From Thermococcus sp. AM4 (lineage in GTDB: Archaea; Methanobacteriota_B; Thermococci; Thermococcales; Thermococcaceae), in the NCBI RefSeq assembly GCF_000151205.2, contig NC_016051.1:1860001-1924000 (forward strand): a stretch of 64,000 nt of DNA, written 5' to 3'. The notes beneath the pieces were generated by a model that worked only from the letters and a program-made list of their open reading frames with translations, had not been told where the DNA came from and did not search any database. The position numbers and the translations under genes are program-made. This document shows, piece by piece, positions 1 through 54,607 of this stretch (the first letter of the stretch is position 1; each line of letters starts with the position of its first letter).

Positions 1-3441
<3,441 letters not shown>

Positions 3442-3484
3442 TTATAGTTTCGGGTTATTGTACCTTTTGGTAAAAGCATCAGCG

Positions 3485-3516
3485 GAACCCTTTGGGGTTC
3501 ACACCTAAATATACCT
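3485..3516 (-). promoter_or_regulatory. Candidate promoter and dyad for the ribonucleotide reductase gene
   Basis: On the minus strand a TATA-like stretch (TATATTTAGG, about 3507-3516) precedes a perfect dyad GAACCC-N4-GGGTTC at 3485-3500, which would sit at the transcription start about 25 bases downstream. The reductase start codon is about 60 bases further on. The dyad could be an operator or the first hairpin of the leader. This is a sequence reading only. Confidence 0.4.
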
Positions 3517-3616
3517 TGCCCTGTTCAACGCTGGCGAAATGACAATAAACCCCGGCTCACTTTGCTCAGGGGGTGAAAGGGTAGAAAAGGGAAGTGTCGG
3601 ATAATTTGTCCATCGG

Positions 3617-21994: not shown

Positions 21995-23112
21995 GCGACT
22001 GGTACTTTCCCAAGCTCGGCGGCGTTGCCGTTCACATGCACGATCTCGCCCTCTACCTCCGCAAGAGGGGTCACGAGGTTGATATAATCACGAACGACCG
22101 CGTAACCGGTAAGGAGGCCGAGCTGAGGGACAACGGCATCGGGTTAGTTAAGGTTCCCGGTTACACCTTCGGGAGCGTTGGAATCAACATGACTGTCTTC
22201 TCCAGAAACGCCTCCCGCCTCATCCCTTACGTGCAGGACTACGACGTCGTTCACGGGCAGCACGCCTTTACTCCCCTGGCCCTCAAAGCCGTCTCCGCCG
22301 GCAGGAAGGCGGGCAAGGCTACGCTGCTGACAACGCACAGCATAAACTACGAGAACTCCTCCGCGATCAGGGCATTAGCGAGGATAACGTTCCCCTACTT
22401 TCGCTACTACCTCGGCAACCCCCACAGGATAATCGCCGTCAGCAGGGCCTCCAAGGACTTCATAAGGCGCTTCACCCGCGTCCCGATCGAGGTCATCCAG
22501 AACGGCGTCAACGTGGATTTTTTCGATATTCCCCTCTCCAAGGAGGAGGCCAAGGAAAGGCTGGGCCTCGGCGAGAGGGTAATCCTCTACGTCGGCAGAA
22601 TCGAGCCGAGAAAGGGGGTCAGCACTCTGATCAACGCAATGAGGCACGTTGACGGAACCCTTCTGATTGCCGGCCAGGGAAGCATGCTCCCCCTCCTCAA
22701 GGAACGCGCAAGGCTCCTCGGCATATCCAAAAAGGTACGCTTCCTCGGCAGGGTGGAGTACTCAGAGCTTCCCCTCTACTACCGCGCGAGCGACGTTTTC
22801 GTGCTCCCGAGCCTGAGCGAGGCCTTCGGGATAGTCCTGCTTGAGGCGATGGCCAGCGGGACGCCGGTCATAGGGACCAGTGTGGGGGGGATTCCCGAGA
22901 TAATCGATGGATGCGGCATCATAGTGCCCCCTGGAAACGCGAAGAAGCTTGCAGAGGCGATAAACCTCATCCTGGGCAACCAGAACATCGAGAAACGCTT
23001 CGGGCGCCTCGGAAAGAGACGGGTGGAGAAGGTCTACGACTGGAACGTTGTCGTCGGGAAGATCGAGGCCCTCTACCGCGACGTCCTCAACGAGGTGGCG
23101 GAGAATGGCTGA
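21967..23112 (+). CDS. GT4-family glycosyltransferase (GT-B fold)
   Basis: A 381-residue retaining glycosyltransferase. The N-terminal domain begins IALVSDWYFPKLGGVAVH (acceptor side) and the nucleotide-sugar domain has ILYVGRIEPRKGVSTLI and the E-x7-E motif SEAFGIVLLEAMASG near 286-300. Archaeal relatives act on lipids or glycans at the cytoplasmic side of the membrane; the acceptor here is unknown. Overlaps with both neighbours place it in one transcript with the UPF0104 protein and the deacetylase. Confidence 0.9.
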   Translation: MESLKIALVSDWYFPKLGGVAVHMHDLALYLRKRGHEVDIITNDRVTGKEAELRDNGIGLVKVPGYTFGSVGINMTVFSRNASRLIPYVQDYDVVHGQHAFTPLALKAVSAGRKAGKATLLTTHSINYENSSAIRALARITFPYFRYYLGNPHRIIAVSRASKDFIRRFTRVPIEVIQNGVNVDFFDIPLSKEEAKERLGLGERVILYVGRIEPRKGVSTLINAMRHVDGTLLIAGQGSMLPLLKERARLLGISKKVRFLGRVEYSELPLYYRASDVFVLPSLSEAFGIVLLEAMASGTPVIGTSVGGIPEIIDGCGIIVPPGNAKKLAEAINLILGNQNIEKRFGRLGKRRVEKVYDWNVVVGKIEALYRDVLNEVAENG

Positions 23113-51835: not shown

Positions 51836-52435
51836 ATGAGGTTCGTTCTCGACACGAGCATTTTCGTCAATCCCGACATCAGGTCGGCCTTTGGCAGAAA
51901 CCCGACCGAGGCAGTTAAGTCCTTTCTCGAGTACGCCAAGGCCCTCTTCGGTAAGGTGGAGTTCTACATGCCGCCCGGGATATACAGGGAGGTCATGAAC
52001 TTCGTGGATGAGGAGGATGTATCGCCCGAACTCGAGCTGTACATAATAAAGAAGCCCCCAAACGTTCACGACATAAAGATCCCGGCCTTCGTGGTGTACG
52101 AGCTTATAGACGACATCAGGAGGAGGATAGACAAGGGGCTCAGGGTTGCTGAGAAGGCCGTGAGAGAGAGCGTGATCGAGACGGATAACGTTGATAAGAT
52201 CATCCAGAAGCTTAGAAGGAACTACCGCAAGGCCCTCCGGGAGGGGATAGTTGACAGCAAGGAGGACTTTGAGCTTATCCTCCTGGCCAAGGAACTCGAC
52301 GCGATCATAGTTTCTGCAGACGTTGGGATATTGACCTGGGCTCAGAAAATGGGCATCAAATGGATAGACGCGGCCAAGTTCAAGGACGTCCTTGAGGAGC
52401 TCGTCGAGAAAGTCCGGGAAGAGAAAAATTTATAA
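51836..52435 (+). CDS. HARP-type RNA-free RNase P (RNA ligase partner, PIN domain)
   Basis: 199 residues of the UPF0278 / RNA ligase partner family. PIN acids are at FVLDTSIFVNPD, PPGIYREVMNFVD, DSKEDFELILLAKELDAII and SADVGIL. Family members (HARPs) remove 5' leaders of tRNA precursors. ATG 51836 follows GGGGTAGACC. Two tRNA genes begin 27 bases after its stop, and the tRNA-Thr TATA box overlaps the end of the gene. Confidence 0.8.
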   Translation: MRFVLDTSIFVNPDIRSAFGRNPTEAVKSFLEYAKALFGKVEFYMPPGIYREVMNFVDEEDVSPELELYIIKKPPNVHDIKIPAFVVYELIDDIRRRIDKGLRVAEKAVRESVIETDNVDKIIQKLRRNYRKALREGIVDSKEDFELILLAKELDAIIVSADVGILTWAQKMGIKWIDAAKFKDVLEELVEKVREEKNL

Positions 52436-52461
52436 ATGCTCGGCTTCATCGTATCATCGAC

Positions 52462-52538
52462 GCCCCGGTGGCTCAGCCTGGTGGAGCGGCCGCTTGGTAA
52501 GCGGCAGGTCGCGGGTTCAAACCCCGCCCGGGGCTCCA
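52462..52538 (+). tRNA. tRNA-Thr (GGT), CCA encoded
   Basis: A full cloverleaf: acceptor GCCCCGG / CCGGGGC, anticodon stem GCCGC / GCGGC with loop TTGGTAA (anticodon GGT), T loop TTCAAAC, discriminator T and encoded CCA (52536-52538). No intron. TATA (AAATTTATAAATG) lies about 25 bases upstream. Confidence 0.95.
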
Positions 52539-52547
52539 GTTTCTCGG

Positions 52548-52625
<78 letters not shown>

Positions 52626-52643
52626 TTCCCAACCGTTGCCTTC

Positions 52644-52708
52644 TTGGACGATATATCCAAAACCTTAATATATGCCTTCGCCCTTTTCTTGCTGGACAAT
52701 TAATCCAG
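52644..52708 (+). promoter_or_regulatory. Promoter bracketed by two TGGA-N7-TCCA dyads
   Basis: Dyads TTGGA-CGATATA-TCCAA (52644-52660) and CTGGA-CAATTAA-TCCAG (52692-52708) flank the TATA box CCTTAATATATG (52663-52674). Centres are 48 bases apart; the first overlaps the BRE side and the second the expected transcription start. They are probable operators for the binding-protein gene that follows. The regulator is not identified. Confidence 0.6.
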
Positions 52709-52717
52709 GTGGTGAAG

Positions 52718-54607
52718 ATGAAAAAGGCGACGGTTTTGTTTCTCCTCCTGATCATGGTGGGCTCGGTTGTAGCCCTAGGCTGCATAAGCGGTTCAGGAAC
52801 CTCAAGCCCCAGCCCTTCCAGCACCTCGAGCGTTGAGCAGAGCCCTACCACCACGACCTCTGCCTCCACCTCTGAATCAACAACTACTCCTTCCACGACC
52901 CCAACTACAACTACCCCCAAGCAAACCCAGACCGAAAAGCCATACTACCCATTAACTATAACGGATTTCGCAAACAGGACCGTTACGATCGAGAAGGAAC
53001 CAAAGAGGGTTGTCACCCTTGCCCCTTCCATAACCGAGGATCTCTACTACCTCGGCCTCTTTGACCGGATCGTGGGGGTTACTAGGTTTGACGACTTCCC
53101 CCCGGAGGTCGCCAACGTAACACGGATCGGCGGTTATGGTAAGTACGCCAACCTTGAGCTCATAGCCAACCTCAGTCCGGATCTGATACTCGCGGACAGT
53201 TACTCCCTATCGATCCTCGATCAGCTCGAGAAGATTGCCCCCGTCGTTATTGTGGACCCCCACAGTGTAGGCGATATTCCCAAGGCTCTCAAGCTCCTTG
53301 GAAAGATCTTCAATGTCGAGCCCAAGGCCGATGAAGTCTCCGCACGGTTCGTTGTCCAGCTTAAGGAGCTCGGCTCCGCGGTATCTGGCTTCAAGAAGGT
53401 TAAGGTGTTCTACGTTGTCTGGGGCGATCCACTGACCACTGCCGGCGGCGATACCTTCATCAGCGACATCATAAACATCGCCGGCGGAAGGAACATCTTC
53501 AACGACACAAGCGGATGGCCGACCGTTAGCATGGAGCAGGTTATAGCCAGGGATCCGGAGGTTATCATCCTCACCCCCCACTGCGGCATGAAGCTGGACG
53601 ATGCCTTCCAGAAGTTCGCCGGAACGTCTGCCGCGAGGAGCGGAAGGATCTACATGATAGAGAACGAGAACGATATTCTCCACCCGAGTCCGAGGCTGAT
53701 CAGGGGCCTTGAGACGCTGGCGAAGCTCCTCCATCCGGAGGCGTTCCAGGAGAAGTACCCGATGACGATAACGGACTTCATGAACAGGACTGTTACCATA
53801 CCGAAGGAGCCCCAGAGGATAGTTTCCCTCGCACCGAGCATAACCGAGACGCTGTTCTACATCGGGGCCGGCGATAAGCTCGTGGGCGTTACAAAGTGGG
53901 CCGACTGGCCCCCGGCTGTGAAGAACATATCAAAGATTGGAGGTTACGGTAAGTACGCCAACCTTGAGCTCATAGCCAACCTCAGCCCGGATCTCATAAT
54001 AGCCGACGACTACGCCGTTCCGATCCTTGACCAGCTCGAAAAGATAGCCCCCGTCGTCATAGTCGCTCCAAAGGACATCAACGGGATTTACAGGCAGATC
54101 GAGCTCCTCGGAAAGATCACAGACAGAGAGGAGCAGGCAAAGCTTGTGATCGGCGAGATGAAGGGAGAGATAGCCTACGTTGAATCCAGGGTCAGAGACC
54201 TTCCGCGCCCCAAGGTCTTCTTCATACTTAGCTATTCCCAGGGCTACTGGACTGCAGGCAGGGGAACCTTCATGGACAGCGTGATAAACATCGCCGGCGG
54301 AAGGAACATCTTCAACGACACGGGCGGATGGGTTAAGGTCAGCGAGGAGCAGGTTATAGCCAGGGATCCGGACGTTATAGTGATCCTCCCGACGGCGGGA
54401 ATAAACGCCACCGAACTCTGCAACGGTCCGCTCTCGGCAACGACCGCCGTCAAGGAGGGGAGGGCCTACACGGCAACCGATTCCAACATCTACCAGAGGC
54501 CCAGTCCAAGGATAGTGATCGCCATAGAGGAGATGGCCGAATTCCTGCATCCGAAGGCCTTTGGAATAACCTTCAACTCGACAGTCTGTGCGGTCTCTAC
54601 CTCCTGA
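52718..54607 (+). CDS. ABC-transporter substrate-binding lipoprotein with two tandem BtuF/FecB-type domains
   Basis: 629 residues. A lipoprotein signal (FLLLIMVGSVVALGC) is followed by a Ser/Thr/Pro linker (about residues 25-65) and two complete helical-backbone binding domains of about 270 residues each. Both begin with ITDFANRTVTIEKEPKRVV or ITDFMNRTVTIPKEPQRIV and share NLELIANLSPDL, INIAGGRNIFND and EQVIARDP. Family members bind cobalamin, heme or iron chelates outside the cell. Start ATG 52718 follows GGTGGTGAAG. No permease or ATPase gene is adjacent. Confidence 0.88.
   Translation: MKKATVLFLLLIMVGSVVALGCISGSGTSSPSPSSTSSVEQSPTTTTSASTSESTTTPSTTPTTTTPKQTQTEKPYYPLTITDFANRTVTIEKEPKRVVTLAPSITEDLYYLGLFDRIVGVTRFDDFPPEVANVTRIGGYGKYANLELIANLSPDLILADSYSLSILDQLEKIAPVVIVDPHSVGDIPKALKLLGKIFNVEPKADEVSARFVVQLKELGSAVSGFKKVKVFYVVWGDPLTTAGGDTFISDIINIAGGRNIFNDTSGWPTVSMEQVIARDPEVIILTPHCGMKLDDAFQKFAGTSAARSGRIYMIENENDILHPSPRLIRGLETLAKLLHPEAFQEKYPMTITDFMNRTVTIPKEPQRIVSLAPSITETLFYIGAGDKLVGVTKWADWPPAVKNISKIGGYGKYANLELIANLSPDLIIADDYAVPILDQLEKIAPVVIVAPKDINGIYRQIELLGKITDREEQAKLVIGEMKGEIAYVESRVRDLPRPKVFFILSYSQGYWTAGRGTFMDSVINIAGGRNIFNDTGGWVKVSEEQVIARDPDVIVILPTAGINATELCNGPLSATTAVKEGRAYTATDSNIYQRPSPRIVIAIEEMAEFLHPKAFGITFNSTVCAVSTS

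Follow-up and report, generated by a model that had tools for sequence, protein, structure and literature searches.

Paired TGGA-N7-TCCA dyads at a btuF-type promoter of Thermococcus sp. AM4 as probable operators of a cobalamin regulon in Thermococcaceae

Bacteria often sense vitamin B12 (cobalamin) with riboswitches, and both cobalamin riboswitches and the CarH-type B12 sensors of bacteria place B12 genes under the control of B12. Regulator sites that lie over the BRE/TATA elements or the transcription start of archaeal promoters usually repress. SurR of Pyrococcus furiosus, which acts in hydrogen and sulphur metabolism, is both an activator and a repressor; its site is GTTN3AAC, unlike the dyad described below. 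The predicted regulons of P. furiosus include one for the regulation of cobalamin biosynthesis, listed as 'CblrR (unknown)' in RegPrecise (as cited in PMC10746257); the main text of PMC3840689 mentions neither CblR nor cobalamin nor any word in Thermococc-. The regulator Tar (TK0271) of Thermococcus kodakarensis has the site TGGACA-N8-TGTCCA at aromatic amino acid operons, and sites upstream of BRE/TATA go with activators, as for Tar (PMC6737238).

We analyzed a window of 64,000 nucleotides (positions 1,860,001-1,924,000) of the Thermococcus sp. AM4 genome, which is a single contig of 2,086,428 bases. As an earlier note made from the sequence had claimed, two TGGA-N7-TCCA dyads, both exact matches with centres 48 bases apart, flank the TATA box of a substrate-binding protein gene (Table 1), and both spacers start with C and are AT-rich (CGATATA, with 5 of 7 positions A/T, and CAATTAA, with 6 of 7). 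Judging from the usual distance between TATA and start, dyad 2 would cover the transcription start. The product of the gene, of the BtuF type, has two Peripla_BP_2 domains in tandem (PF01497, E 3.3e-68 in Pfam with the query taken from codon 2, position 52721), the binding domain having been duplicated in tandem. The best matches from several genera span one domain only. The families PF01497 and FecCD, the latter matched in Pfam by a BtuC relative from another genome, also serve iron compounds. The assignment of btuF and btuC to B12 is by context, and the shared operators together with the cobT/cobQ neighbours found in relatives suggest B12 as the substrate of the btuF-type protein.

The genes for tRNA-Thr and tRNA-Pro lie 5' of the btuF dyads, the second ending at 52625, and these two tRNAs are the only covariance-model matches above the gathering score in the interval 52400-52900. 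A cobalamin riboswitch was rejected for the same interval, where none of the 18 covariance-model matches up to E 10 belongs to a cobalamin family. In contrast to the bacterial riboswitches, the present locus has a DNA dyad and no riboswitch match. In contrast to CarH, no HTH fused to PF02310 was found at E 0.001 in the genome of the window: of its two PF02310 matches, one is the small subunit of the mutase and the other is a radical-SAM protein. Tar resembles the dyads in its half-site TGGACA, in its sites upstream of BRE/TATA at activated genes and in its occurrence in Thermococcales. However, its spacer is N8 as against N3 between the 6-nt half-sites here (15 bp, TGGAYA-N3-TRTCCA), and its targets, the aro, trp and tyr-phe operons, were found at none of the 16 good sites of this genome, as far as their contexts were read; Tar was rejected as the binding protein because both spacer and targets differ.

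Table 1. Features of the btuF and nrdJ promoters in the window, and dyad sites in the genome of Thermococcus sp. AM4
Feature	Genome site	Window positions	Strand	Sequence	Remark
Dyad 1, first of two btuF sites		52645..52659, centre 52652		TGGACGATATATCCA	Exact TGGA-N7-TCCA; ends 5 nt 5' of TATA, on the BRE side
TATA box of btuF-type gene		52665..52672	+	TTAATATA	From sequence; place conserved in relatives
Dyad 2, second of two btuF sites		52693..52707, centre 52700		TGGACAATTAATCCA	Exact TGGA-N7-TCCA; adjoins Shine-Dalgarno
Shine-Dalgarno of btuF-type gene		52708..52715	+	GGTGGTGA	From sequence
BtuF-type substrate-binding protein gene		52718..54607	+		Target gene of both dyads
nrdJ, class II ribonucleotide reductase with intein		1..3426	-		Start 3426; cut by the left end of the window
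nrdJ dyad	1863598	3598..3612	-	TGGACAAATTATCCG
Mutase large subunit	956257
Mutase small subunit	1223023
meaB	1223553
mmdA	1318898				NCBIfam match below cut-off; name partly from family and context
btuC	1354111				NCBIfam match below cut-off; name partly from family and context
cobA	1492287
nrdD	1568508
Acyl-CoA synthetase alpha	1607211				NCBIfam match below cut-off; name partly from family and context
cobT/cobQ	1951205				Divergent genes
UDG-family gene, then cbiB (cbiB operon)	1959319
Intergenic site beside radical-SAM gene	23035

By itself, the number of dyads in the window is at chance and has no significance: TGGA-N7-TCCA occurs twice, while 100 dinucleotide shuffles averaged 1.01 matches and 28 of them contained at least 2. 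Genome-wide, there are 48 positions of the palindrome versus 31 for the reversed control, and matches to this loose pattern are probably mostly due to chance; the btuF pair is the sole pair less than 50 bp apart among the 48. Constraints on the core promoter and the Shine-Dalgarno, or chance, could in principle have produced the dyads with no regulator involved, and besides the window count, the position of dyad 2 next to GGTG and of dyad 1 next to the BRE would fit such an explanation. What makes the btuF dyads significant is their conservation, together with the repeated occurrence of the AT-rich form at promoters that are related in function.

A relative of the btuF-type protein is present in all 94 Thermococcaceae genomes. 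We examined 70 btuF promoters, one each from 70 genomes including that of the window (30 plus 40 loci), with an automatic filter for which a Shine-Dalgarno, a TATA-like string and a dyad spacing of 38-60 were mandatory. Both dyads were assigned in 59 of the 70 promoters and only the downstream one in 7, with no assignment in the remaining 4; among the latter, three (L043, L047 and L101) have both dyads by eye, neither dyad showing more than one mismatch in its TGG/CCA ends, and L048, the fourth, has the upstream dyad at least. The earlier note had named as a refutation of its claim the disappearance of the two dyads from close relatives in which the gene persists; the 70 promoters show no such case. 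Six of the seven downstream-only genomes (G018, G022, G025, G043, G057 and G062) have the downstream form CGGACAAAACGTCCA, which in the 5 genomes examined in full is part of two abutting, half-overlapping dyads, TGGACATTTAATCCGGACAAAACGTCCA, located 3' of TATA and directly 5' of the Shine-Dalgarno. The frequent forms elsewhere are TGGCAAAAATATCCA beside the BRE and TGGACAAATAATCCA, the commonest form of dyad 2, before GGTG. Six loci (L068, L102, L104, L105, L107 and L108) showed no upstream btuF dyad of the usual kind, and the abutting dyads in the five examined in full represent an operator rearrangement.

Across the 70 promoters, the two dyads are spaced by 46-49 bp in most genomes, by 43-45 in five g3 genomes and by 53-55 in seven g5 genomes and one g1 genome (G063), and they abut in six genomes. 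They are positioned relative to the TATA box and the start-codon region rather than to one another, and they persist while the gene upstream of btuF changes between genomes. Because the pair spacing varies, a fixed helical phase is not kept, and the cooperative action of the paired sites that had been suggested is not supported in a strict form; we read the btuF dyads as two independent blocks rather than as one phased complex. A protein on dyad 1 would block the access of TFB/TBP to BRE/TATA, the same protein bound at dyad 2 would obstruct the start, and two such single blocks would yield tight repression of btuF with no need for an exact spacing.

The pattern TGGAYAAWWNRTCCA, allowing at most one mismatch, occurs at 16 places in the genome of the window, 13 of which are at promoters of B12, methylmalonyl-CoA or ribonucleotide-reductase genes, with target identities from NCBIfam and Pfam; since this pattern was drafted after some of the sites had been seen, the 13 of 16 are partly circular, and the cross-genome counts provide the independent test. 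Besides the intergenic site listed in Table 1, the remaining two places are intragenic. CRISPR-array-like repeated translated strings such as SILLESYCN were noted at L018:379-2042 and L025:3144-4157 (around 1,220,700 and 464,600 in the same genome).

Among 115 genomes of the phylum, TGGAYAAWWWRTCCA occurs at least once in 94 of 94 Thermococcaceae and in 6 of 21 others, and its reversed control has no match in any of the 115. We then considered the 220 nt upstream of target genes in thirty chosen genomes of six genera. The dyad precedes the gene for the mutase large subunit in 30 of 30 genomes and nrdD in 20 of 20 genomes having the gene, whereas for cobQ it was found within 220 nt in 13 of 24; in 5 of the 11 misses (G002, G018, G024, G077 and G087), cobQ stands behind another co-directional gene. 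Altogether, a dyad is present in 88 of 104 upstream stretches of target genes. Control windows taken from these loci have one in 48 of 1644 cases, and some of the controls include real sites of neighbouring targets. A further pattern, TGGANWWWWWNTCCA, has 60 sites in seven genomes versus 11 for its control. In the 23 stretches read, btuC, cobA, the mutase small subunit, meaB, acyl-CoA synthetase alpha and cobT appeared again and some stretches were intragenic or unrelated (for example, L219, L226, L228 and L236), although these contexts were chosen by the pattern itself and are not independent of it. The motif from 39 distinct sites is TGGA-Y-A-W-W-W-T-R-TCCA, with a middle that is nearly all A/T and outer positions of 1.2-2.0 bits, values inflated by the preselection of sites for 7 of 8 outer matches.

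The conservation of the dyads, the empty reversed control and the excess of sites upstream of target genes all speak against a by-product of promoter constraints, as does the distance between dyad and TATA at other targets, where the dyad stands 31-32 nt or about 85 nt further upstream, and we consider that explanation highly improbable. Sequence comparison instead gives us good reason to think that a single dimeric DNA-binding protein has the dyads as its operators and controls a cobalamin regulon across Thermococcaceae. The core promoter of btuF would accordingly be bracketed, as first proposed, by two operators of, most likely, one regulator, and the suggested cofactor theme holds in that the regulon is centred on cobalamin; the other suggestion, a metal sensor, is disfavored, there being no metal gene among the good sites. 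The predicted cobalamin regulon of P. furiosus is similar in archaeal order, in its cobalamin genes and in a protein factor marked as unknown. Sites at cobalamin uptake and synthesis genes in Thermococcales were found here at btuF, btuC, cobA, cobT/cobQ and the cbiB operon, and the present sites likely belong to that predicted regulon, the two having been compared by description rather than by motif or gene list.

The regulator of these same operators might respond to another signal, such as propionate or methylmalonyl-CoA flux or cobalt, or bind only when B12 is scarce; the gene set would then be linked to B12 although the active form is not the protein with B12 bound. Indeed, the methylmalonyl-CoA genes (mutase, mmdA and acyl-CoA synthetase alpha) are covered as well as the B12 genes. 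However, nrdD, cobT/cobQ, cobA, btuC and nrdJ have the cobalamin link in common and no known role in propionate metabolism, and corrinoid methyltransferase genes bear the dyad in another family (see below), so that a different signal appears unlikely and B12 itself would be the signal.

The position of the dyad relative to the promoter falls into two classes. In class 1, which includes btuF (dyads 1 and 2), nrdD, btuC, cobA, cobT/cobQ and meaB, the dyad lies over the core promoter; the proximal dyad of nrdD is directly 5' of the Shine-Dalgarno, like dyad 2 of btuF, often with a second dyad further upstream. In class 2, the distance from the end of the dyad to TATA is 31, 32 and 32 nt at the mutase small subunit, mmdA and the mutase large subunit, respectively, which in the genome of the window are three unrelated promoters, and there is an additional CCTTNAG-like box, conserved by eye. 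The dyad of the mutase large subunit is at -87 or -88 from the ATG in 23 of 30 genomes. The activator-like geometry is not uniform: the nrdJ dyad is about 85 nt from the likely TATA, and that of acyl-CoA synthetase alpha is 12 nt from TATA here and about 30 nt in relatives such as L089 (by eye). Furthermore, the simple split into classes does not hold for meaB, whose dyad is placed like that of a repressor although the gene serves the mutase.

Because class 1 positions are repressor-like and class 2 positions are activator-like, the sites can be read as a dual switch. When B12 (probably adenosylcobalamin) is plentiful, the protein acting at btuF would repress this gene, the other B12 acquisition genes and the B12-independent nrdD. 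Bound at the sites 31-32 nt upstream of TATA, it would switch on mmdA and the genes of the B12-dependent methylmalonyl-CoA mutase. Repression, as originally proposed, remains our reading of the dyads over the core promoter, but given the activator-like position at other targets the protein is probably not only a repressor. Alternatively, two paralogous regulators with similar dyads might share the sites, one repressing B12 acquisition and nrdD and the other activating the mutase genes, as the two geometric classes and the extra CCTTNAG-like box of the second could suggest; yet both classes fit one consensus in a pooled matrix, and a single protein that both represses and activates has a precedent in Thermococcales in SurR, which makes two regulators improbable. 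As a tentative proposal, with somewhat less than an even chance of being right as a whole, a putative B12-sensing factor would, with B12, shut off uptake, salvage and nrdD and turn on the mutase pathway and nrdJ, and would do so probably in a second family as well. One protein would then act at all the sites, with the sign of control set by their position.

The class II reductase gene nrdJ is a likely member of the regulon. Its dyad is at -185 to -197 from the ATG in 25 of 30 genomes, that of the window included, and is lacking in 5 of the 30. The encoded protein has the Pfam domains PF03477, PF00317, PF02867 and PF14890. In the nrdJ leader (window positions of about 3427-3500, minus strand), a CTGATGCTTYTACTAA-like stretch is followed by CAGGGGTGTTTATATG, both conserved by eye in many of the 30 genomes compared (L272-L301), and an RNA or translational element in this leader is possible.

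Outside Thermococcaceae, three f4 genomes of the same class (G109, G110 and G112) have a dyad of the looser form TGGA-N-W5-N-TCCA directly 5' of a TATA-like string, preceding genes for URO-D/B12-binding methyltransferases, and in G110 and G112 such a dyad is found also upstream of corrinoid-protein genes. The search of five f4 genomes (G108-G112) gave 13 pattern sites, of which 5 are these corrinoid-related ones; contexts were examined for 8 of the 13, all but one site in G108 and four in G112, so that the share among those examined is 5 of 8. In a set of ten contexts outside Thermococcaceae, two are at corrinoid genes (C10 and C15 of G110), and the other eight are intragenic or without a corrinoid gene (G097, two in G102, two in G104, G105, C7 of G110 and C6 of G112). 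At the f4 loci L303, L304, L306, L307 and L308, the dyad precedes corrinoid methyltransferase or corrinoid-protein genes, and in L308 a gene of the RACo reactivation type comes next. From these sequence contexts, an extension of the B12 regulon to a second family appears likely.

In 31 of 70 loci, 8 of which are cut by the locus end, a gene for a protein with an XRE-type HTH and a CBS pair stands upstream of btuF at no more than about 1.5 kb; in G087 it is 2.2 kb from btuF. Besides btuF and the known targets, it is the commonest neighbour of btuF (23 of 70 by clustering and 31 of 70 with cut-off copies included). An HTH of the lambda type would fit a short dyad whose middle is AT-rich, and adenosyl compounds are ligands of CBS pairs. 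The TGGA dyad was absent from all 16 XRE-HTH + CBS promoters examined for it, and the palindrome ATAACYGGTGGTTAT or a near form is present in 23 of 24 such promoters, where it is probably the own, autoregulatory operator of this protein. ATAACYGGTGGTTAT is conserved over the Shine-Dalgarno of the gene (L049:3405-3983 and 30 other btuF loci; L241:3978-4547). We regard the XRE-HTH + CBS protein as the leading candidate for the regulator, albeit a doubtful one.

Matches to ArsR1 (L032:1014-1589, minus strand) occur in 89 of 94 genomes and in 74 of the 74 good ones, and ArsR1 adjoins the acyl-CoA synthetase alpha target in many loci, which made ArsR1/ArsR2 a second candidate. We disfavor it: the promoter of ArsR1 has other repeats, of the AACGTT type (by eye), and in two g3 genomes (L221 and L223) the dyad is found in the interval from ArsR2 to the synthetase gene and so goes with the latter. 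In L221, ArsR1, a small gene and ArsR2 stand together. AACGTT-type repeats and a TTTACATATATAAA-like element, unlike the dyad, were seen upstream of ArsR1 in L072, L075, L077, L083, L089 and others. An HTH-ACT protein near 23035 (L016) was set aside, since the dyad is nearer to the TATA of the divergent radical-SAM gene; no matching site for this locus was among the TGGANWWWWWNTCCA stretches read. Among the sites examined in this genome and seven others, a check that covered all but about ten of the 60 TGGANWWWWWNTCCA sites, no regulator gene has the dyad in its own promoter. In the literature covered, in which subscription papers were mostly not included, we found no description of the regulator or of a dual mode of this kind.

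The dyad sites and how they are conserved, the set of genes and the site geometry are direct observations, from which a single protein for all sites, B12 as its signal and the sign of control are inferred. As far as we can tell, the paired btuF operators, the two geometries, the inclusion of both ribonucleotide reductase classes and the likely second family are new. With a 15-bp operator, about a dozen targets and 94 genomes, the regulator should be findable by pull-down in genetically tractable Thermococcus, and the two classes of sites make activation versus repression by site position testable. If the proposal is true, one protein would choose between B12-dependent and B12-independent synthesis of DNA precursors.
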